64,000 nucleotides of DNA from Enterobacteriaceae bacterium RIT693 (GTDB lineage Bacteria; Pseudomonadota; Gammaproteobacteria; Enterobacterales; Enterobacteriaceae), in the NCBI GenBank assembly GCA_009668225.1, contig WJYK01000001.1:1-64000 (forward strand), given 5' to 3'. The notes under the pieces were generated by a model, which did not search any database, was not told where the DNA came from, and saw nothing but the letters and a program-made list of their open reading frames with translations. Below are positions 1,953-20,410 of this stretch, piece by piece (position 1 is the stretch's first letter; the number at the start of each line of letters is the position of its first letter). The translations under genes were made by a program, and so were the position numbers.

Positions 1953-4900
1953 ATGGGCACCACCACGATGGGCGTAAAACTGGATGAAGCGACGCGCGAC
2001 CGCATTAAAGAGGCCGCCTCGCGTATTGACCGCACGCCACACTGGCTGATTAAGCAGGCCATCTTTAATTACCTGGAACGCCTGGAAAGCAGCGACGATC
2101 TGCCTGAGCTTCCTGCCCTGCTGGCCGGTGCGGCCAATGAGAGCGAAGAGTCTCCGGCGCAGCCTGAAGAAGTGGCGCAGCCGTTCCTCGACTTTGCCGA
2201 GCAAATCCTGCCGCAGTCCGTCAGCCGGGCCGCGATCACCGCCGCGTGGCGTCGCCCTGAAACCGACGCAGTCCCGATGATCCTTGAGCAGGCTCGCCTG
2301 GCCCCGGCCATCGCCGAACAGACGCAAAAGCTGGCTTATCAGCTGGCCGACAAGCTGCGTAATCAGAAAACGGCTTCCGGCCGCGCGGGCATGGTTCAGA
2401 GCCTGCTGCAGGAGTTTTCTCTTTCTTCTCAGGAAGGCGTGGCGCTGATGTGCCTCGCGGAAGCGCTGCTGCGTATCCCGGATAAAGCCACCCGCGACGC
2501 GCTGATCCGCGACAAAATCAGCAACGGGAACTGGCACTCGCACATTGGCCGCAGCCCTTCGCTGTTTGTGAACGCCGCGACGTGGGGCCTGCTGTTTACC
2601 GGCCGCCTGGTTTCAACCCATAACGAAGCCAGCCTTTCCCGCTCCCTGAACCGCATCATCAGCAAAAGCGGCGAGCCGCTGGTGCGTAAAGGCGTGGACA
2701 TGGCCATGCGCCTGATGGGCGAGCAGTTCGTGACCGGCGAAACCATCGCCGAAGCGCTGGCTAATGCCCGCAAGCTGGAAGAAAAAGGCTTCCGTTACTC
2801 TTACGACATGCTGGGTGAAGCCGCGCTGACCGCCGCCGACGCTCAGGCCTATATGGTCTCTTATCAGCAGGCGATCCACGCCATCGGTAAAGCTTCCAAC
2901 GGCCGCGGCATTTATGAAGGCCCGGGCATCTCCATCAAGCTTTCCGCCCTGCACCCGCGCTACAGCCGCGCGCAGTACGACCGCGTAATGGAAGAGCTGT
3001 ACCCGCGCCTGAAATCCCTGACGCTGCTGGCGCGCCAGTACGACGTCGGCATTAACATTGACGCCGAAGAAGCCGATCGCCTGGAGATCTCCCTCGATCT
3101 GCTGGAAAAACTGTGCTTTGAACCCGAGCTGGCAGGCTGGAACGGCATCGGCTTTGTTATTCAGGCCTACCAGAAGCGCTGCCCGTTTGTGATTGATTAC
3201 CTGGTCGACCTGGCCACCCGCAGCCGTCGCCGCCTGATGATTCGCCTGGTAAAAGGCGCCTATTGGGACAGCGAAATTAAACGTGCTCAGGTTGATGGCC
3301 TTGAGGGTTACCCGGTTTATACCCGCAAGGTGTATACCGACATCTCTTACCTCGCGTGCGCCAAAAAGCTGCTGGCCGTGCCAAACCTTATCTACCCGCA
3401 GTTTGCGACCCACAACGCCCACACGCTGGCAGCGATTTATAACCTTGCCGGGCAGAACTATTATCCTGGCCAGTACGAATTCCAGTGCCTGCACGGTATG
3501 GGCGAACCGCTTTATGAGCAGGTGGTAGGGAAAGTCGCAGACGGCAAACTGAACCGTCCTTGCCGCATCTACGCCCCGGTCGGCACCCACGAAACGCTGC
3601 TGGCTTACCTGGTGCGTCGCCTGCTGGAAAACGGCGCCAACACCTCCTTCGTCAACCGCATCGCCGACGCAACCCTGCCGCTGGACGAGCTGGTTGCCGA
3701 CCCGGTCAGCGCGGTTGAAGCTATGGCCGTTAAAGAAGGCCAGCCTGGGTTACCTCATCCTAAAATCGCCCTGCCGAAAGCGCTGTACGGTACAGAACGC
3801 AGCAACTCCAGCGGCCTGGATTTGGCGAACGAACACCGCCTGGCATCGCTTTCTTCCGCCCTGCTGAACAGCGCCGCGCAAAAATGGCAGGCCACACCTG
3901 TACTGGAGCAGCCGGTTGTTGAAGGCGAATTAACGCCGGTGAAAAACCCGGCTGAACCAACGGACGTTGTGGGCTACACCCGCGAAGCAACGAGCGAAGA
4001 AGTTTCCCTCGCCCTTGAGAATGCCGTCAACCACGCGCCGATCTGGTTTGCCACCCCGCCGCAGGAACGTGCCGCTATTCTTGAGCGTGCCGCCGTGATG
4101 ATGGAAAGCCGTATGCAGCAGCTGATCGGCATCCTGGTGCGCGAAGCAGGTAAAACCTTCAGCAACGCCATCGCCGAAGTGCGTGAAGCAGTGGACTTCC
4201 TGCACTATTACGCAGGCCAGGTACGTGACGACTTCGACAATGAAACGCATCGTCCTCTCGGCCCCGTCGTGTGTATCAGCCCGTGGAACTTCCCGCTGGC
4301 TATCTTTACCGGCCAGATTGCCGCCGCGCTTGCCGCCGGTAACAGCGTGCTGGCAAAACCTGCGGAACAAACGCCGCTGATTGCCGCTCAGGGCGTGGCG
4401 ATCCTGCTGGAAGCTGGCGTGCCTGCGGGCGTGCTGCAGCTGTTGCCTGGCCGCGGTGAAACCGTAGGCGCGCAGCTGACGGGCGACCCGCGCGTGCGCG
4501 GCGTGATGTTCACCGGCTCAACCGAAGTAGCTTCCCTGCTGCAGCGCAACATCGCCGACCGCCTTGATCCGCAAGGGCGCCCAACGCCGCTGATTGCGGA
4601 AACCGGCGGCCTCAACGCGATGATCGTTGACTCCTCCGCGCTGACCGAGCAGGTTGTGGTGGACGTGGTCTCCTCTGCGTTCGACAGCGCAGGCCAACGC
4701 TGCTCCGCCCTGCGCGTACTCTGCCTGCAGGAAGACGTGGCTGACCACACGCTGCAAATGCTCCGTGGCGCGATGGCGGAATGCCGTATGGGGAACCCAG
4801 GCCGCCTGACTACCGACATCGGGCCGGTGATTGACGCCGAAGCACAGCAGAATATTGAGAAGCACATCCAGGCGATGCGCGCCAAAGGTCGCACCGTATT

Positions 4901-5915
4901 CCAGGCCGTGCGTGAAAACAGCGTGGACGCGCGCGAATGGCAGTCCGGCACCTTTGTGGCTCCGACCCTTATCGAACTGGAAAGCTTCGACGAGATGAAG
5001 AAAGAGGTGTTCGGTCCTGTACTGCACGTAGTGCGCTACAGCCGCAACAATCTTGAATCCTTAATCAAGCAGATCAATGCCGCAGGTTATGGCCTGACGC
5101 TCGGCGTGCATACCCGTATCGACGAGACGATTGCCCAGGTCACCGGCTCAGCCCACGTCGGCAACATGTATGTTAACCGCAACATGGTCGGCGCCGTGGT
5201 TGGCGTTCAGCCATTCGGCGGTGAAGGCCTGTCCGGTACCGGCCCTAAAGCCGGTGGTCCGCTGTACTTGTATCGCCTGCTGGCGAGCCGTCCGGAAAAT
5301 GCGCTGCAAACCACCTTCAACCGCCACGATGCGGAAACCCCGGTGGATGCCTCCCTGAAGAGCGATCTGCAGGTTGCCCATCAGGCACTGAGCGAGTGGG
5401 CGGCCAACCGCGAAGAGCTGCAAGCCGTTTGCCAGCAGTTTGGCGAACTGGCGCAAAGCGGGACGCTGCGCGTGCTGCCTGGCCCAACCGGGGAGCGCAA
5501 TACCTACGCCCTGCTGCCGCGTGAACGCATTCTGTGCGTTGCCGACGACGAACGCGATGCGTTAGTGCAGCTTGCGGCGGTCACCAGCGTCGGCAGCCGC
5601 GCGCTGTGGGCGGATGACAGCCTGCACCGCAACCTGGCTAAGCAGTTGCCTAAAACCGTGCAGCAGCAGATTGATTTTGCGAAGCAGGAAGAGCTGCTGA
5701 AACAGCCGTTTGAGGCGGTGATTTACCACGGCGACTCCGACCAGCTGCGCAAACTCTGCGAAGCCGTAGCCGCCCGCACGGGCGCGATTGTTTCCGTCCA
5801 GGGCTTTGCCCGTGGCGAAAGCAATATCCTGCTTGAGCGTCTTTATGTGGAGCGCTCCCTGAGCGTGAACACCGCGGCAGCAGGCGGCAACGCCAGCCTG
5901 ATGACAATCGGCTAA
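1953..5915 (+). CDS. putA: Trifunctional PutA: proline repressor, proline dehydrogenase and L-glutamate-gamma-semialdehyde dehydrogenase
   Basis: This 1320-residue protein oxidises proline to glutamate in two steps and represses the put genes. In order: an N-terminal ribbon-helix-helix DNA-binding domain (about residues 1-47, starting MGTTTMGVKLDEATRDRIK), the FAD-dependent proline dehydrogenase barrel (roughly 260-610, including GPGISIKLSALHPRYSR), and the NAD-dependent aldehyde dehydrogenase (roughly 650-1130), whose catalytic cysteine is in SAGQRCSAL at residue 917. The length equals that of E. coli PutA. The start is supported by a GGAG ribosome site. Without proline it sits on the put operators; with proline and reduced FAD it moves to the membrane. 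Confidence 0.98.
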   Translation: MGTTTMGVKLDEATRDRIKEAASRIDRTPHWLIKQAIFNYLERLESSDDLPELPALLAGAANESEESPAQPEEVAQPFLDFAEQILPQSVSRAAITAAWRRPETDAVPMILEQARLAPAIAEQTQKLAYQLADKLRNQKTASGRAGMVQSLLQEFSLSSQEGVALMCLAEALLRIPDKATRDALIRDKISNGNWHSHIGRSPSLFVNAATWGLLFTGRLVSTHNEASLSRSLNRIISKSGEPLVRKGVDMAMRLMGEQFVTGETIAEALANARKLEEKGFRYSYDMLGEAALTAADAQAYMVSYQQAIHAIGKASNGRGIYEGPGISIKLSALHPRYSRAQYDRVMEELYPRLKSLTLLARQYDVGINIDAEEADRLEISLDLLEKLCFEPELAGWNGIGFVIQAYQKRCPFVIDYLVDLATRSRRRLMIRLVKGAYWDSEIKRAQVDGLEGYPVYTRKVYTDISYLACAKKLLAVPNLIYPQFATHNAHTLAAIYNLAGQNYYPGQYEFQCLHGMGEPLYEQVVGKVADGKLNRPCRIYAPVGTHETLLAYLVRRLLENGANTSFVNRIADATLPLDELVADPVSAVEAMAVKEGQPGLPHPKIALPKALYGTERSNSSGLDLANEHRLASLSSALLNSAAQKWQATPVLEQPVVEGELTPVKNPAEPTDVVGYTREATSEEVSLALENAVNHAPIWFATPPQERAAILERAAVMMESRMQQLIGILVREAGKTFSNAIAEVREAVDFLHYYAGQVRDDFDNETHRPLGPVVCISPWNFPLAIFTGQIAAALAAGNSVLAKPAEQTPLIAAQGVAILLEAGVPAGVLQLLPGRGETVGAQLTGDPRVRGVMFTGSTEVASLLQRNIADRLDPQGRPTPLIAETGGLNAMIVDSSALTEQVVVDVVSSAFDSAGQRCSALRVLCLQEDVADHTLQMLRGAMAECRMGNPGRLTTDIGPVIDAEAQQNIEKHIQAMRAKGRTVFQAVRENSVDAREWQSGTFVAPTLIELESFDEMKKEVFGPVLHVVRYSRNNLESLIKQINAAGYGLTLGVHTRIDETIAQVTGSAHVGNMYVNRNMVGAVVGVQPFGGEGLSGTGPKAGGPLYLYRLLASRPENALQTTFNRHDAETPVDASLKSDLQVAHQALSEWAANREELQAVCQQFGELAQSGTLRVLPGPTGERNTYALLPRERILCVADDERDALVQLAAVTSVGSRALWADDSLHRNLAKQLPKTVQQQIDFAKQEELLKQPFEAVIYHGDSDQLRKLCEAVAARTGAIVSVQGFARGESNILLERLYVERSLSVNTAAAGGNASLMTIG

Positions 5916-5933
5916 CAGTTAGTTACGCTACGA

Positions 5934-5959
5934 GGGCTCTCATCTGAGAGCCCTTTTTT
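5934..5959 (+). terminator. Rho-independent terminator of putA
   Basis: A perfect 9-bp stem (GGGCTCTCA / TGAGAGCCC) with a two-base loop is followed by TTTTTT, 18 bp after the putA stop. A second near-identical copy lies about 153 bp downstream. Confidence 0.9.
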
Positions 5960-6086
5960 ACTGATGACAAACAGCCGAAAAACGTGGTTTTCGACTGTTT
6001 GGTGCAAACCAGAGAACATTATTCTTTGTTTACATTAGACCAGAGCCCAGAATTTTAAGGACAATATACTTTGTCCACCGTCTCGA

Positions 6087-6113
6087 GGGCTCTCATCTGA
6101 GAGCCTTTTTTTA
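6087..6113 (+). terminator. Second, near-identical copy of the putA terminator, upstream of the LprI-like gene
   Basis: The same stem-loop (GGCTCTCA / TGAGAGCC) followed by seven T residues sits 16 bp before the next start codon. The stretch between the two copies (5960-6083) contains two further inverted repeats: an imperfect one at 5969-6000 (AAACAG...CTGTTT) and GGACAA/TTGTCC at 6059-6076. The copy may end a short transcript of its own or attenuate entry into the following gene; which is unknown. Confidence 0.75.
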
Positions 6114-6128
6114 TTTGAGGACAGCGAA

Positions 6129-6521
6129 ATGAAACGCGTGTGTTTACTTGTTGGCGGGCTGCTGCTGAGCGGGGCCGCGATGGCCGATGGCTGTGATGCA
6201 GCCACCACCCAGGCCGATATGAATCAGTGCTATGCCGCAGAGTATAAAAAGCAGGACGAGCAGCTGAACAAAACCTACAAAGAAGTGATGTCCCGGGCAA
6301 CCGACAAGCAAAAAGCGCAGCTTAAAAAAGCGCAGAATGCGTGGATAGCCTTCCGCGATGCGGACTGTGATTTTATGAGTTCAGGCGCGGAACAAGGTTC
6401 CGTCTACCCGATGGTGCGCGCCAACTGCCTGGCGGATAAAACGCTGGAACGTACCGAGCTGCTAAAAGGTACGCTGGAGTGCGAAGAGGGAGACGTGAGC
6501 TGCGTCCTGCCCCCTAAGTAA
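6129..6521 (+). CDS. Periplasmic LprI-like (DUF1311) protein
   Basis: A 130-residue protein with a clear Sec signal peptide (MKRVCLLVGGLLLSGAAMA) and a mature part of the lysozyme-inhibitor-LprI / DUF1311 type. It shows CDAATTQADMNQC near the mature N-terminus, the QLNKTYKEVM helix, a QNAWIAFRDADC segment, and paired cysteines that probably form disulfides in the periplasm. A GAGG ribosome site precedes the ATG. Members of this family include lysozyme inhibitors, but most enterobacterial ones are uncharacterised, so no activity is claimed. It is convergent with rutR and separated from putA by two terminator-like hairpins. Confidence 0.8.
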   Translation: MKRVCLLVGGLLLSGAAMADGCDAATTQADMNQCYAAEYKKQDEQLNKTYKEVMSRATDKQKAQLKKAQNAWIAFRDADCDFMSSGAEQGSVYPMVRANCLADKTLERTELLKGTLECEEGDVSCVLPPK

Positions 6522-6527
6522 GCGCGA

Positions 6528-7172
6528 TTACCTCACCCGAATCCCCTCAATAATCATCCGCTGCACGTTTTCCACCGTGCGGCGGAAGAAATCTTCGTCC
6601 TGCAGCGTATTACCGGTCACAGCCTCAACCTGGCTGGCAAAATCCGCATAGTGCTGGGTCGTGGCCCAGAGCATGAAAATAAGATGATGCGGGTCAACGG
6701 CAGCAAGCTTACCGCTAGCAACCCAGCCGGCAATGATCGCCGACTTGTCATCTACCAGGGCTTTCAGGTCCCCCGTCAGCTCGCCTTTTAGCAGCGGTGC
6801 GCCCTGCAGCATCTCCAGGCAAAAGAGCTTAGAAGCCTGCGGATAATCGCGCGAAACCTCCAGCTTGAGCCGAATGTATTCCCCAATCGCCACCAGCGGC
6901 TGCAGATCCTCACGAAAGGCACGCAGCGGCGCAAGCCAGACGTCGAGGATCTGCTTGAGCACCGCAATATAGAGCGCTTCTTTGGAAGGGTAGTAATAAA
7001 GCAGGTTAGTCTTTGAAACTTCGGCCCGCTCGGCAACCTGCTCAAGGCTGGTGCCATGGATGCCGTATTGAGAAAAGAACGCCAGCGCAGCGTCAAGAAT
7101 GGCCTGTTTTTTGGCCGCGACGGCTTTCGAGCGGCGTCCAGGGGTTTTATTGTCAGTTGCGGCTTCAGCCAT
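6528..7172 (-). CDS. rutR: TetR-family regulator RutR (pyrimidine-responsive)
   Basis: A 214-residue TetR-type repressor. The N-terminal helix-turn-helix (about residues 25-65, with HGTSLEQVAERAEVSKTNLLYYYPSKEALY) and the ligand domain (KLEVSRDYPQASKLFCLEMLQGAPLL, FMLWATTQHYADF, ending in VENVQRMIIEGIR) match E. coli RutR closely. RutR senses uracil/thymine and in E. coli controls the divergent rutABCDEFG pyrimidine-degradation operon and other genes. Here the rut operon is not beside it, although putA on one side and ymdF-wrbA further along keep the E. coli order. Its remaining targets in this strain are unknown. Confidence 0.92.
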   Translation of the reverse strand: MAEAATDNKTPGRRSKAVAAKKQAILDAALAFFSQYGIHGTSLEQVAERAEVSKTNLLYYYPSKEALYIAVLKQILDVWLAPLRAFREDLQPLVAIGEYIRLKLEVSRDYPQASKLFCLEMLQGAPLLKGELTGDLKALVDDKSAIIAGWVASGKLAAVDPHHLIFMLWATTQHYADFASQVEAVTGNTLQDEDFFRRTVENVQRMIIEGIRVR

Positions 7173-15977: not shown

Positions 15978-16127
15978 ATGAAACTGTTTTACTATTCAGC
16001 CGCGGGCATGGTTGCTGCGCTGATTGTGCTCTGGGGAGCGCTGATTCTGGACAGCGCCAATATCCTGCAGCAAATGTCAGTGTTGATGCATTACATAGAA
16101 TATCTGTTTAAACCCAGCGAACGCTAG
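15978..16127 (+). CDS. Small single-span membrane protein
   Basis: A 49-residue protein (MKLFYYSAAGMVAALIVLWG...) with one hydrophobic helix of about 20 residues and a short amphipathic tail ending KPSER. The open frame extends back to 15930, but the -10 element lies inside that extension, so 15978 is the better start. No strong ribosome site is seen. I do not recognise the family. It is convergent with the FecCD permease gene, 3' ends overlapping by four bases. Confidence 0.5.
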   Translation: MKLFYYSAAGMVAALIVLWGALILDSANILQQMSVLMHYIEYLFKPSER

Positions 16128-17125
16128 CGTCGGGCAACCATCACCACAATAAACAGCCCGCCAATGCCTGCGGTAATAATGCCGATGGGCAGCTCCTGCG
16201 GCGCGACCAGCACCCGGCTGACGATGTCCCCCCCGCACAGCAAACTCGCCCCCGCTAATGCGCACAACGGCAGAAGCCGAGCGTGCCTGATTGCCGAAAA
16301 ATGTCGGCAGAGATGCGGCACCATCAGCCCGACAAAGCCAATCACGCCGGTCAGCGCCACGAAGATAGCGGTCGAAAAGGCACAGCACAGGAAGATCTCG
16401 GTGCGCAGGCGGTTAACGTTAATACCCAACGAAAATGCCGTGCGATCGCCCGCCAGCAGCCCGTCAAGCGAGCGCCACCGCAGCAGGCAAAACGCGGCCA
16501 GCAGCAAAAGTCCGGCCAGCGCAAAGCCCAGATTGTCCCACCGTGCCAGCCCCAGGCCACCGAGCGACCAGAACAACACCGAGCTGGCCGTGCGCTGATC
16601 GCCGGCAAAAATCAGGTAGCTGGTTAACGCGCCGAACAAAAAGGAGATGGCCAGCCCACAAATAATCAGCGTTTCCGCTCCCCGCTCGCGCTTCAGTTGG
16701 AACAAGGACAGCACCGCAACGGAAGAAAGCAGCCCGCCACAAAAGGCCGCCACCGGCAACGTCCAGGCGCCGAAGAAGTCACCAAAACGGGTAAAAACCA
16801 GCACGGCCCCGGCAGAAGCGCCGGAAGAGAGTCCGAACAAAAAAGGATCCGCCAGCTCATTGCGCGTGGCGGTTTGCAGCAAAGCGCCGACCACGGCAAG
16901 CCCCGCCCCGGTCATCAGGGCCAGCAGCGTTCTTGGCAGCCGAATATCCAGCACAATGCCGCGAATCATCGGTGAAACGTCCTGAGCCGTGGGCTGCAGC
17001 GCGCTTGCCACCTGATGCAGACTCAGCCGGACCGAGCCTTCGGTCAGGCTGAGCGCCGCAAAAAATACGATCAGAAACACGGCCAGGCACGCGGCCCGGC
17101 CGTAGCGGGAAGCTATAAACATCAC
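16124..17125 (-). CDS. FecCD-type ABC permease of the Zur-box operon
   Basis: A 333-residue polytopic inner-membrane permease of the BtuC/FecCD family, which transports vitamin B12, iron-siderophores, haem or other metal chelates. Typical segments are LDIRLPRTLLALMTGAGLAVVGA (residues about 58-80), NELADPFLFGLSSGASAGA, and FVGLMVPHLCRH in the C-terminal third. It begins inside the stop region of the binding-protein gene (4-bp overlap), so the two are translationally coupled. It is the last gene of the five-gene operon starting with folE2; the metal-related context suggests a zinc complex as substrate. Confidence 0.9.
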   Translation of the reverse strand: MMFIASRYGRAACLAVFLIVFFAALSLTEGSVRLSLHQVASALQPTAQDVSPMIRGIVLDIRLPRTLLALMTGAGLAVVGALLQTATRNELADPFLFGLSSGASAGAVLVFTRFGDFFGAWTLPVAAFCGGLLSSVAVLSLFQLKRERGAETLIICGLAISFLFGALTSYLIFAGDQRTASSVLFWSLGGLGLARWDNLGFALAGLLLLAAFCLLRWRSLDGLLAGDRTAFSLGINVNRLRTEIFLCCAFSTAIFVALTGVIGFVGLMVPHLCRHFSAIRHARLLPLCALAGASLLCGGDIVSRVLVAPQELPIGIITAGIGGLFIVVMVARR

Positions 17126-18075
17126 AGGGCCGCGAACAGAACGTGCGCAAGCTTCTCTACCGCAGCAATATTTGCCGGGCCGGGCGTTAACTCAGCGTAC
17201 TGCAGCTTAAGGTAACGGTGCTGTTTAACCGCCGGGGTGAGCTTCATCAGCGGATGGCGCTCAAGGAACTGGCGTAGCGAATCCGCACCGCCGCCGTTTT
17301 GGTAATCCAGCAGGATGATGACATCCGGCTCGGCTGCCGCCACGCTTTCCCAGGATGTTGTGCCCCAACTGGTGTCCAGCCCTTCCATTGCGTTTTTACC
17401 ACCTGCGGCCTCGATAATGGCCTGCGGCATGGCGTATTTCCCGCTGGTAAACGGCTTATCCTCGCCGGAGTCGTAGACAAACACGTTCAGCGGCTTCGCG
17501 CCCTGCTTCGCTTTAGGGAGTGCCGCAAGCCGCTCTTTCCAGCCATCAACCAGCTTCTGAGCAGCCTCTGCCTTACCAAATATTTTGCCCAGCGTAAGCT
17601 CATCGTTATAGAGCAGATCCAGGGTCGCTTTGGTTTTGCTTTCGCCGGAAATCGCGCAGCTTTCGCTGAGCACAAATGTTTTGATGCCGTATTTCGCCAG
17701 ACTTTGGGGAGTTACATCGCCCCCCACCTTCATGCCGTAATTCCAGCCGGCAAAGAAGAAGTCGGGTTCGGCGGCCAGCAGCGTTTCAAGCGAGGGATAT
17801 TTGGGCGCAAGCTCAGGGATCGTCCCCATTTTCTGCTTAAATTCTGGCGTCATTTTGTACCAGCCGGAGATGCCCGTCAGGCCCACAATCTGCGGTTGCA
17901 AATGGAGGGCGAAAGCCATCTCTGACATGTTCAGGTCATTTATTACCGCACGCTTAGGCGGCGCGTTAAACACCACGGGTTTACCGCAGCTATTAATGGT
18001 CGCAGGGAACCCCGAGGCCAAAGCCGCGGTGGAAGCAAAGGCAAGCAGCATGCCGGAGGCAATTTTTAACATCAT
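17122..18075 (-). CDS. Periplasmic metal-chelate binding protein (BtuF/FepB-like)
   Basis: A binding protein of about 317 residues with a signal peptide (MLKIASGMLLAFASTAALAS), then a two-lobed Fe/B12 periplasmic-binding domain (CGKPVVFNAPPKRAVINDLNMSEMAFAL; YPSLETLLAAEPDFFFAGWNYG; EPDVIILLDYQNGGGADS). The open frame extends upstream to 18174, but the ATG at 18075 starts a proper signal sequence and lies 16 bp after the ATPase stop. It would deliver a metal complex to the FecCD permease. No TonB-dependent receptor lies nearby. Ligand identity is inferred only from the operon and Zur-type site. Confidence 0.88.
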   Translation of the reverse strand: MMLKIASGMLLAFASTAALASGFPATINSCGKPVVFNAPPKRAVINDLNMSEMAFALHLQPQIVGLTGISGWYKMTPEFKQKMGTIPELAPKYPSLETLLAAEPDFFFAGWNYGMKVGGDVTPQSLAKYGIKTFVLSESCAISGESKTKATLDLLYNDELTLGKIFGKAEAAQKLVDGWKERLAALPKAKQGAKPLNVFVYDSGEDKPFTSGKYAMPQAIIEAAGGKNAMEGLDTSWGTTSWESVAAAEPDVIILLDYQNGGGADSLRQFLERHPLMKLTPAVKQHRYLKLQYAELTPGPANIAAVEKLAHVLFAAL

Positions 18076-18091
18076 AGCGATCCCTGAAAGT

Positions 18092-18883
18092 TTACTGTTG
18101 GCGTGAGGATTCAAAAAAACGGACTCGCCTGCCTTGCTGGCCGGGATGCTCCACGGTAAAGCTATCGAGGCCAAAGACGGGGCGAAGGGTTTGGGTACTC
18201 AGGGCAGCGTCAGGCACGTTAAAAGCCCGCTGCTGGCCCGCAGACAAAATAAGGACTTTGTCGGCAAACCCTTCGATTAAGTTGAGATCGTGCAGGACGG
18301 CGATAACCGTGGTACCGCGAGCTTTCACCAGCGTCAGCAGTTCTTCCCGCGCCGCCAGATCAAGGTGGTTGGTCGGCTCATCCAGCAGCAGCAGCCGTGA
18401 AGTTTGCGCCAGCGTTCGCGCCAGAATCGCCCGCTGCCGTTCACCGCCGGACAGGCAGGCCAGCGATTTATGCCGCATCCCAAGCACACCCACCTCTTTC
18501 ATCGCGCCACAAACAATGCAGCGGTGTTCTGGCTCAGGCATATCCCGGGCAAACGGGAGCCGCCCAAGCGCGACATAATCTTCGATGGACAGGCGCAAAT
18601 CAGGGAGATCGTTTTGCGACATGACCGCCACGAGCTTCGCCCGCAGCAGCGGATTGAGCTTATTTAAGGGGCGGCCCGCAAGCGTAATCTCCCCTTCAAC
18701 CTTTAGCTCCTGGCTCAGCGCCCGCAGCAGCGACGTTTTACCGCTGCCGTTGGGCCCAATCACGCTGAGGCGCTCGCCTTTTTGCAGGTGAAAATTAATC
18801 GCCACCGGCCAGACTGCGCCCTGCGGACGGGCAATCGCCCGCAGGGAAACGCTCAACTCTGGCTCTGCGGATGAAAGAGACAT
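18092..18883 (-). CDS. ABC transporter ATP-binding protein (metal-chelate type)
   Basis: A 263-residue ATPase. Walker A is GPNGSGKT (residues 43-50), the ABC signature is LSGGERQRAILARTL, Walker B is RLLLLDEPTNHLD, and the switch histidine is in VIAVLHDLN. It belongs to the FecE/BtuD-like group that partners FecCD permeases and powers import. It lies between the gamma-carbonic-anhydrase gene (2-bp gap) and the binding protein (16-bp gap) in one operon. Confidence 0.92.
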   Translation of the reverse strand: MSLSSAEPELSVSLRAIARPQGAVWPVAINFHLQKGERLSVIGPNGSGKTSLLRALSQELKVEGEITLAGRPLNKLNPLLRAKLVAVMSQNDLPDLRLSIEDYVALGRLPFARDMPEPEHRCIVCGAMKEVGVLGMRHKSLACLSGGERQRAILARTLAQTSRLLLLDEPTNHLDLAAREELLTLVKARGTTVIAVLHDLNLIEGFADKVLILSAGQQRAFNVPDAALSTQTLRPVFGLDSFTVEHPGQQGRRVRFFESSRQQ

Positions 18884-18885
18884 AC

Positions 18886-19446
18886 TCAGAACTCGTTGCG
18901 CAGCAGCTGGTAACCTTCCACCAGCTTGACGTTGGTATTGGCCACCTCTTCAGAAAACTGAACAGACGCAGGGTCAACGCGTGAATATTGGGTTAAATCA
19001 GAGTCTGGCCCTACGCGCTCGGTAGACGGAATATACGTTTGCTTCGGCAGCGTGACGCCATCCACCACCGCGTTATAGCGAATGACGCAGCCGGTTTGTA
19101 CGTGGCAGTTGAACAACACGCTGTTGAAACCGATAAACACCCGCTCATCGACCCGGCAAGGGCCGTGGACAATTGCCCGGTGCGCAATCGACGTGCCGCT
19201 GCCAATGGTCACCGGCGCGCCACTTTTAGAGTGAATCACTACGCCGTCCTGAATATTCGAATGGGAATGGATAACGATAGGGTCCATGTCTCCTTCGGCG
19301 TTCAGTTCGTCGGCGCGGATCACCGCATAAGGCCCGACATACACATAGTCATGAATAATGACCCGGCCACAAATGACCGCCGTAGGGTCGATATACGCTT
19401 TGGGAGAGACCTGCGGCAGATGGCCTGACGGGTTTTTACGCAACAT
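18886..19446 (-). CDS. Gamma-carbonic-anhydrase-like left-handed beta-helix protein
   Basis: A 186-residue hexapeptide-repeat protein (start MLRKNPSGHLPQVSP, chosen because the upstream frame lies within folE2). The trimeric gamma-class fold is suggested by repeated V/I-x-I-G steps (AVICGRVIIHDYVYVGPYAVIRADE). Three candidate metal ligands are kept: H72 in VVIHS, and H89 and H94 in IAHRAIVH. Paralogues of this family are found in Zur-regulated clusters of other bacteria, where they may replace a zinc-dependent enzyme using iron or act as metal chaperone; the role here is inferred. It overlaps the 3' end of folE2 by 11 bases. Confidence 0.82.
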   Translation of the reverse strand: MLRKNPSGHLPQVSPKAYIDPTAVICGRVIIHDYVYVGPYAVIRADELNAEGDMDPIVIHSHSNIQDGVVIHSKSGAPVTIGSGTSIAHRAIVHGPCRVDERVFIGFNSVLFNCHVQTGCVIRYNAVVDGVTLPKQTYIPSTERVGPDSDLTQYSRVDPASVQFSEEVANTNVKLVEGYQLLRNEF

Positions 19447-20374
19447 GGTGATTTCCTGTCCAGTGAATATGAGCCACCGCATTGTGCGCATGGAGGCTTT
19501 CCTGATGCTCAACGCGGAGAGTAAAAGCGGCGCTGAAAGGCGCGTCCAGCATCGCCTTGTTCAGGCGGCGAGCGGCGTCTTCGCAAAACATCAAATTTTG
19601 TCCGTTGGCCAGGGCGAAAGCCTGTTCGTCGCTGCGCTTAACCACCGTCTGCACCGCCGTTCCAAGCGCGGCCTCGCCGCGGTCGATAAGCTCCTCGAAA
19701 GGCAGCGTGGCAACTTCCGGCTTCAGCCGGCAGCTAACCCACGCCCAGCTTCTCTGGCTGTGGGGCGTGCCCGGCATCCCCTTCTCGCCCAGCCAGGCCA
19801 TCATCTCTTCCACAGAGATGTTGTCGCTTCGCCCGGCAAAGTCCCGCTGAAACTGCCGCTGAGCGAGATTGCGGCTCAGTGCCGCCGATGCCGGACAGGT
19901 GGACGAATACGGGATCCCCACCCGGATCGTGACGGTAAAAACGTCCCCACGCTCCGCCAGAATACGGATGGGATAAGCCTTCCAGCCAAAGTGGTTTGAG
20001 GTTAAAGATTTGCGGGATAGCAGCATTTCGCCGGTAATTTCCACGCTGGCGCGGTCGCTGCTGCGCTGGTGCGAAACCAAAAATTCACCCAATAAATGGC
20101 GCAATACCGCCGGCGTAATTTCGCCCTGGGTTAGCTCGTCCAGCAGCAAATAGATCCGGGACATATGAATGCCCTTTTCCGCTTCCGGGGAATTGAGAAG
20201 ATTGATCCCGGCGTTGACTTTCGCCGCCAGCGGGCGGCCAGCCACCTTCACCGGAAGATCGATTTGTTCCATGCCGACCCAGGACAGGGCCGTGTCGAAT
20301 TCGTGGCTTCTGAGTGACTGAATATCAGGCAGCGTTTTAGGGCATAGCATTGGGGTGACCGTCATAGCGTGCAT
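19436..20374 (-). CDS. folE2: GTP cyclohydrolase IB FolE2 (zinc-independent)
   Basis: A 312-residue enzyme catalysing the first step of folate/pterin synthesis, GTP to dihydroneopterin triphosphate, without the structural zinc needed by FolE. It shows the COG1469 signatures: LPVKVAG, GIHMSRIY near residues 69-74, SRKSLTSNHFGWK, and the active-site cysteine in IPYSSTCPASAALS (C160). An alternative start is the ATG three codons in (20365). It leads the operon and lies directly behind a Zur-type palindrome. FolE2 is the classical zinc-sparing backup enzyme in many bacteria. Confidence 0.93.
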   Translation of the reverse strand: MHAMTVTPMLCPKTLPDIQSLRSHEFDTALSWVGMEQIDLPVKVAGRPLAAKVNAGINLLNSPEAEKGIHMSRIYLLLDELTQGEITPAVLRHLLGEFLVSHQRSSDRASVEITGEMLLSRKSLTSNHFGWKAYPIRILAERGDVFTVTIRVGIPYSSTCPASAALSRNLAQRQFQRDFAGRSDNISVEEMMAWLGEKGMPGTPHSQRSWAWVSCRLKPEVATLPFEELIDRGEAALGTAVQTVVKRSDEQAFALANGQNLMFCEDAARRLNKAMLDAPFSAAFTLRVEHQESLHAHNAVAHIHWTGNHHVA

Positions 20375-20390
20375 CGTCTTATTGTTAATT

Positions 20391-20410
20391 TGTTACGTTA
20401 TAACATAACA
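20391..20410 (-). promoter_or_regulatory. Zur-type operator upstream of folE2
   Basis: An almost perfect inverted repeat with core GTTACGTTATAACATAAC (20392-20409; only one mismatched pair) lies 17 bases upstream of the first folE2 ATG. Its GTTATAAC-rich arms resemble the enterobacterial Zur site (GTTATANTATAAC class) rather than a Fur box. Position over the promoter fits repression in zinc-replete cells. Confidence 0.75.

Follow-up and report, generated by a model that had tools for sequence, protein, structure and literature searches.

A Predicted Zur-Controlled Operon of a Cedecea-Type Enterobacterium Combines folE2 with a Candidate Importer of a Zinc or Cobalt Chelate

In the first 64,000 nucleotides (nt) of contig WJYK01000001.1 of Enterobacteriaceae bacterium RIT693 (here, the window, within which all unqualified coordinates are given), we found a compact minus-strand operon of five genes. 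Together with the box ahead of it, the operon occupies positions 16124-20409 and encodes FolE2, a gamma-carbonic anhydrase (gamma-CA)-like protein, and the ATPase, binding protein, and FecCD permease of an ATP-binding cassette (ABC) importer. The window belongs to a 5.04-Mb genome of Cedecea type. To the reading that this is a Zur-repressed zinc-starvation operon, whose importer carries a chelated divalent metal, either zinc or cobalt, and stems from a cobalt- and B12-linked family, we assign a probability of roughly 60%. In the presence of zinc, two Zur dimers on the 18-bp box would block transcription. When zinc is scarce, the operon would be expressed, with two enzymes presumed to work without zinc: FolE2 would sustain folate synthesis, while the gamma-CA-like protein would probably replace a zinc carbonic anhydrase by using another metal and the BtuCDF-like three-gene importer would move a small-molecule chelate of zinc or cobalt from the periplasm to the cytoplasm. 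We infer repression, substrate, metal, and the direction of a regulatory change (see below) from sequence comparison. The issue at stake is whether zinc-starved cells respond with chelated zinc or with cobalt.

The box lies within an inverted repeat, TGTTACGTTATAACATAACA (positions 20391-20410), in which 18 of 20 bases match around a GTTATAAC core; the nearly perfect 20-bp palindrome before folE2 that a preliminary description of the window had pointed out is thus real. The 18-bp box ends 17 nt ahead of the folE2 start codon (20374). Escherichia coli Zur operators are reported to contain GAAATGTTATA-N-TATAACATTTC and to hold two overlapping dimers on RxxxYRxxR*YxxYRxxxY (PMC4219657), and the window box agrees with this two-dimer motif at 18 of 18 positions. 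The genome contains the exact 13-mer GTTATAACATAAC five times, compared with 0.09 expected from the base composition of the window, and on this ground a chance palindrome was rejected. The five places fall into four loci: this operon, zinT (NF007639, 378.5 bits; cut-off, 300), zigA (NF038288, 683.3 bits; cut-off, 600; two overlapping places within one palindrome), and a second zinc-type ABC operon (ATPase, permease, and binding protein), whose ATPase and binding protein score closest to AztA (209.1 of 220 bits) and AztC (276.5 of 350 bits), respectively, but remain under the cut-offs. GTTATAATATCAC lies between znuA (NF007091) and a divergent ATPase gene. Looser matches are found near the chance rate (nine places within one mismatch of GTTATANTATAAC, seven for the reversed control, and 6.3 expected), so we base the case for a Zur box on exact matches to the 13-mer and on the conservation of the box. 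The genome has two FUR-family genes, of which the C3 copy is Zur-like, with Cys pairs, and was named Zur by eye.

For the conservation of the box, the best 80 of 392 relatives of the binding protein were kept as loci, and all counts out of 80 refer to these. They come from several Enterobacterales families and Vibrionaceae, among others, and their tree places 61 loci on a gamma side and 19 on an alpha/beta side. Of the 61 gamma-side loci, 47 have a box with at most one mismatch ahead of the importer operon; of the 19 alpha/beta loci, none does. Four more gamma-side loci (L038, L050, L057, and L102) have a two-mismatch site there, and in L040 the box precedes an adjoining COG0523 gene. Five further gamma-side relatives come with promoter sequence (L010-L013 and L016), and the site is present in four of them. 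Over the 80 loci, 58 sites with at most one mismatch lie in the 46-kb promoter zone, compared with 10 in 1246 kb elsewhere (reversed pattern, 0 and 2, respectively), a contrast that is somewhat inflated because an initial scan preceded the choice of zones. Judged from the motif fit, the 13-mer shared with zinT, zigA, and the zinc-type ABC operon, and this conservation, Zur control of the operon, as originally proposed, is very likely.

Pfam assigns the five products to GCHY-1, hexapeptide, ABC ATPase, Peripla_BP_2, and FecCD (Table 1). The genes are as tightly packed on one strand as first described: folE2 and the gamma-CA-like gene overlap by 11 nt, gaps of 2 and 16 nt precede the ATPase and binding-protein genes, respectively, and the binding-protein and permease genes overlap by 4 nt. 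One transcript is likely because all neighbors overlap or are at most 16 nt apart. A scan with a simple consensus revealed no sigma-70 promoter before folE2, which is weak evidence either way. FolE2, the single match of its kind in the whole genome, passes its curated family score, and its identity is well supported. For the gamma-CA-like protein, the assignment is fairly well supported: it is a PF00132 hexapeptide protein with His 72, 89, and 94 in gamma-CA metal-ligand motifs, and its scores stay under the curated equivalog cut-offs (NF040597, 110.5 versus 380 bits; NF050158, 55.9 versus 250 bits). The three His residues were assigned by what we take to be the gamma-CA ligand pattern, and not by alignment to a known gamma-CA. 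Both FolE2 and gamma-CA function with cobalt. For gamma-CA, function with iron is reported as well (PMC2770081).

Table 1. Positions of the operon genes and of the predicted Zur box in the window
Feature	Position	Strand	Basis
Zur box, 18-bp inverted repeat GTTACGTTATAACATAAC	20392..20409	.	Fits RxxxYRxxRYxxYRxxxY on both strands
folE2, GTP cyclohydrolase IB	19436..20374	-	PF02649, 214.5 bits; NCBIfam NF010200, 290.8 bits (cut-off, 215)
Gamma-carbonic-anhydrase-like hexapeptide protein	18886..19446	-	PF00132, 59.9 bits; best NCBIfam matches are CcmM and carbonic anhydrase, below cut-off
ABC importer ATPase	18092..18883	-	PF00005, 98.1 bits; nearest NCBIfam models are heme, F420-0, and corrinoid importer ATPases, below cut-off
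Periplasmic substrate-binding protein, cluster A-II type	17122..18075	-	PF01497, 78.6 bits; AlphaFold2 pLDDT (predicted local distance difference test score), 89.5; Foldseek
FecCD-type permease	16124..17125	-	PF01032, 279.4 bits; BtuC and FecCD models match below equivalog cut-offs

The nearest named genome is that of Cedecea neteri (binding protein, 95%, and folE2, 91% identical). With E < 1e-60 as the limit, 15 of 59 genomes have a close relative of the binding protein, eight of them from the same genus and one with the relative in two pieces, and the distribution of the importer is patchy. In all seven other genomes of the genus (L003-L009), the gamma-CA gene adjoins the importer; over the 80 loci, folE2 and the gamma-CA gene precede it in four, all of Cedecea type. 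Megablast of the operon DNA against E. coli genomes gave no match. A dihydroorotase gene directly follows the permease gene in L027-L029 but not in L030, the fourth Cedecea-type locus (L027, NF006688, 684.5 bits; cut-off, 535). This dihydroorotase reads DDQVHF at what we take to be the usual metal motif, with Gln in place of the first His. In P. aeruginosa, folE2, gamma-CA, and pyrC2 are reported to stand together (PMC10393844 and PMC4542158), as PA5539-PA5541, a set of zinc-independent paralogues. The Cedecea-type operon resembles this set in the pairing of folE2 with the gamma-CA gene and, in three of four relatives, in the dihydroorotase, but it includes an importer. In the window strain, no dihydroorotase gene is found at the operon end, where the permease gene abuts an open reading frame (ORF) of 49 amino acids instead.

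Zinc links are also seen elsewhere on the gamma side. On an IncF plasmid of Klebsiella pneumoniae (L124, NZ_CP072497.1), where the binding protein is 76% identical, the importer is followed by zigA (NF038288, 701.5 bits), and two-mismatch repeats of Zur type precede both on this one plasmid, at distances of about 540 nt from the annotated ATPase start and 280 nt from zigA. Near both, at 16842-18591 of L124, there are a gene annotated as encoding a GTP-binding protein and a divergent, weakly Zur-like regulator gene of the Fur family. Importer matches occur in 1276 of 72,556 plasmid records, 579 of them from Klebsiella and 585 at 60-90% identity. COG0523-like genes of one cluster occur within the fetched stretch in 14 of the 80 loci (by Pfam in two), and since some of them are CobW by position, such a neighbor alone cannot separate zinc from cobalt. 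Neighborhoods were drawn from codon-scored gene picks, and some alpha/beta loci (e.g., L087, L094, and L098) are still miscalled.

What the importer carries has to be judged from its relatives. The binding protein matches PF01497 alone in Pfam and none of the ZnuA-family models in NCBIfam, and with only four His and two Cys residues, it is unlikely to have a ZnuA-like site for bare zinc. Foldseek with the predicted structure returned 4mlz, 4n01, 5cr9, and 4ljs at the top, then heme binding proteins, and lower down B12 and siderophore binding proteins. With BtuCDF, the importer shares the folds of permease, ATPase, and binding protein and several aromatic cage positions; it differs in that the equivalog scores of BtuC (194.7 versus 334) and BtuF (35.6 versus 234) are not reached, a separate BtuF exists elsewhere in the genome, and a Zur box replaces B12 control. 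ZnuABC and the second ABC operon (AztABC/ZniCBA-like) both have Zur-type boxes in the window genome, as the importer does, but they use ZnuA- and AztC-like binding proteins rather than a PF01497 protein with four histidines. For the binding protein and permease, the best NCBIfam matches, all below cut-off, are those of a putative F420-0 transporter (TIGR03868, TIGR03869, and TIGR03873); the function given by these models is itself hypothetical, and they may cover a wider family of metal or cofactor importers.

In kind, the importer appears to resemble PA2911-PA2914 of Pseudomonas aeruginosa, a Zur-controlled importer reported to carry cobalt-pyochelin, with cobalt easing zinc starvation (PMC11481552 and PMC13083405). 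The likeness extends to Zur control (here predicted), a cluster A-II binding protein, a B12-type permease, and a proposed role in chelate import under zinc starvation. PA2911-PA2914 includes a TonB receptor, whereas the window operon has none, nor is there a Zur-boxed receptor in the window genome, and the window importer is joined to folE2 and the gamma-CA gene, unlike its counterpart. Zur-controlled importers of BtuCDF type are described in Pseudomonas; the type studied here is patchy in several families of Enterobacterales and in Vibrionaceae, has matches on Klebsiella plasmids, and has a sister clade run by riboswitches (see below). Among the matches listed, open-access titles and abstract openings mention no Zur-controlled FecCD importer in Enterobacterales, although supplements and regulon databases may hold such a prediction; within these sources, the earlier statement that zinc uptake of this kind is scarcely described in enterobacteria is uncontradicted.

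The earlier proposal of zinc-chelate import is plausible: the FecCD/BtuC type of the importer and its Zur box on the gamma side are supported, and the zinc chelate as cargo is less certain. Zur control points to zinc, and a zinc chelate taken up without a dedicated zincophore system is one tentative candidate. A cobalt chelate is another, likewise well short of an even chance, because PA2911-PA2914 is reported for cobalt-pyochelin and the sister clade has links to both B12 and cobalt. Possibly, then, zinc starvation brings about the import of cobalt, not of zinc: the cobalt-chelate importer of a family that cobalamin riboswitches elsewhere govern for B12 synthesis would have been placed under Zur, supplying enzymes such as FolE2 and the gamma-CA-like protein. 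We regard this as a speculative proposal; if true, one Cedecea transcript would hold a metal-substitution program, the importer part of which is spread over Enterobacterales, Vibrionaceae, and Klebsiella plasmids.

The alpha/beta sister clade is regulated differently. A scan for the cobalamin riboswitch (RF00174 of Rfam) covered 24 of the 80 loci, with alpha/beta locus L103 left out, and found it in 13 of the 18 alpha/beta loci scanned. (i) In all eight loci from Phyllobacterium (five), Mesorhizobium (two), and Rhodoferax (one), it immediately precedes the ATPase gene or coincides with the called start of that gene, with scores of 57-138 bits. (ii) In 5 of 10 further Burkholderiales sources, it lies about 2.1-4.4 kb upstream of the ATPase gene, ahead of a CobB/CobQ-type gene. 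In L082, L085, L088, and L100, the permease gene is followed by a COG0523 gene (CobW by position), CobN, and a ChlI-like subunit; at L087, where the riboswitch is present, these genes were not called. The Burkholderiales cob-operon genes were identified by Pfam on L088 and assigned by clustering for the rest. RF00174 was not found at L075, L079, L081, L099, and L105; the last three of these are either short contigs or truncated close to the importer. It was also absent from all 13 gamma sources scanned, which comprise 6 of the 61 gamma-side loci plus 7 short loci that include two distant outgroups. In Mesorhizobium L089 and L094 (5300-10000), a two-mismatch Zur-like repeat, a COG0523-like gene, a cobalamin riboswitch, and the importer follow one another in this order, a layout of possible side-by-side Zur and B12 control within one cluster.

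On a tree without the distant outgroup rows L017-L019, and with L057 and L124 given the Zur-box label after box scans, the Zur-box and riboswitch labels change once each in 100% of 200 bootstrap trees. The split between the Zur and riboswitch sides is clear; the branch between them is not strongly supported (91/66). On the gamma branch, Zur would thus occupy the place that the cobalamin riboswitch holds on the alpha/beta branch, and the direction of this change is what we propose, not what the tree dictates. B12-linked neighborhoods, which the preliminary description had named as contrary evidence, exist in part of the alpha/beta clade; on the gamma side, the importer goes with Zur boxes.

A first rival explanation follows from the sister clade. 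The importer may be a corrinoid importer under Zur, in which case cobalamin or cobinamide taken up in zinc starvation would let B12-dependent enzymes spare zinc, with MetH standing in for MetE, an abundant zinc enzyme. The riboswitches of the sister clade (8/8 and 5/10 loci), partly in cob operons, fit this explanation, as does a MetH domain without stops in 47 of 50 genomes (the window genome and those of 49 of the 80 loci; L060 was left out), and cobalamin import has been voiced for PA2914 (PMC4542158). Yet BtuF is already present over cut-off in 44 of the 50 genomes, including the window genome, where the single cobalamin riboswitch sits before btuB. In Erwinia piriflorinigrans (L063, genome G086), moreover, all three importer genes are open frames and the Zur box is present, but the draft shows no MetH domain, a best BtuF score of 55.9 of 234 bits, no BtuR/CobO, and a best BtuB score of 61 of 599.7. 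Since the boxed importer is kept there without MetH, BtuF, BtuR, and BtuB, B12 is an unlikely substrate in this species. Of 37 genomes of its genus, 11 lack MetH; because six of the seven other MetH-lacking genomes tested also lack BtuB over cut-off, a real loss is suggested. P. massiliensis, without MetH, and P. stewartii, with a broken MetH remnant, both keep BtuF, BtuR, and BtuB. We rejected an ordinary B12 importer, and we consider vitamin B12 itself unlikely as the gamma-side substrate and a corrinoid under Zur improbable, less likely than a chelate of zinc or cobalt.

Several results weigh against a Zur-repressed chelate importer. With regard to regulation, no fitting box was found in 9 of the 61 gamma-side loci. 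Two of the nine, L041 and L080, run into a contig edge near the box position; L083 has a two-mismatch site outside the 18-bp motif fit and was counted as boxless; and in L051, L055, L065, L069, L072, and L073 no box was found. Conversely, L086 and L095, on the riboswitch side, have a two-mismatch Zur-like site near the importer start, which blurs the split. The inflated promoter-zone contrast and the negative sigma-70 scan belong here as well. With regard to the substrate, the sister clade is B12-regulated, and the case against B12 comes from a single draft genome of a genus in which 3 of 37 genomes have the importer.

The binding-protein cleft adds to these points. We aligned 60 sequences, from the window and from 59 of the 80 loci, and chose the cleft loops from the fold type and not from a bound structure. 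Identity of at least 90% in both clades is reached at 57 of the 102 cleft-loop positions and at 55 of the 197 positions outside these loops. Specificity-determining positions that distinguish the Zur from the riboswitch clade are few (11), and 2 of them are within the cleft loops. Enterobacterales differ in the cleft loops at 6 positions from Vibrio/Aeromonas (both Zur), at 6 from Rhizobiales, and at 10 from cob-operon Burkholderiales, and the two riboswitch groups differ from each other at 13. As the Zur-internal control (6) equals the Rhizobiales count (6), the comparison says merely that the clefts are alike, and this likeness leaves room for a corrinoid ligand. The corrin cage of BtuF is reported to consist of Y50, W66, W85, F162, F168, and W196 (PMC5269720). 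The counterparts in the importer family are W72, a gap, W111, D202, F209, and W237 (alignment at about 27% identity), so that four of the six positions are aromatic, a partly BtuF-like cage. The cage numbering was placed on Cedecea BtuF by motif and is presumed to be right. Relative to BtuF, the cleft thus seems aromatic but altered.

A chelate must also cross the outer membrane. If a secreted zinc chelator, made by the cell or by a neighbor, were taken up through a TonB receptor, the importer could be the inner-membrane half of a dedicated zincophore system, for which the Zur box and the cluster A-II binding protein would be suitable. Of 19 TonB-receptor matches in the window genome, 18 are full length, but within 400 nt upstream, none of these 18 has a Zur site with two or fewer mismatches, and two show a three-mismatch, AT-rich match. 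The operon contains no metallophore synthesis gene, a statement confined to the operon, as no genome-wide search was made. A dedicated system is therefore doubtful. The simplest reading is that a porin-permeable chelate, or a receptor outside Zur control, serves the predicted Zur-controlled chelate importer.

It is very improbable that the operon encodes an iron-siderophore or heme importer that merely happens to stand behind folE2, outside the zinc response. Membership in PF01032 and PF01497, the heme-importer-like ATPase, and the structural likeness to heme binding proteins would agree with such an importer. However, 43 gamma-side loci besides the four Cedecea-type ones have a Zur-type box ahead of the importer with no folE2 there, COG0523 or zigA genes are neighbors at some loci, and no siderophore-synthesis genes were seen among 20 neighbor genes scanned, a small part of all neighbors. 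The box at the importer and the COG0523 and zigA neighbors led us to reject a heme or ferric siderophore importer.

Some minor observations concern other parts of the genome and the operon end. At position 4024 of L121 (own genome, C49:70700-78700), GTTATGCTATAAC lies between two divergent genes that we take by eye for cysS and ppiB, and it may be there by chance. At position 3987 of L117 (own genome, C5:66100-74100), the site GTTATAAAATAAC precedes an HflK-like/HflC-like pair (genes at 4048-7022), the second gene of which encodes a His-rich N terminus. PA2437-PA2439 of P. aeruginosa (HflC/HflK family) appear in a zinc-response table (PMC4542158), so the pair may be a further Zur target, with the site alone being within chance. 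The 49-amino-acid ORF (positions 15978-16127, plus strand) is convergent with the permease gene, touches its stop codon, and has one membrane helix by eye. Three of the four Cedecea-type relatives have this ORF at 88-92% identity, abutting the dihydroorotase gene rather than the permease gene.

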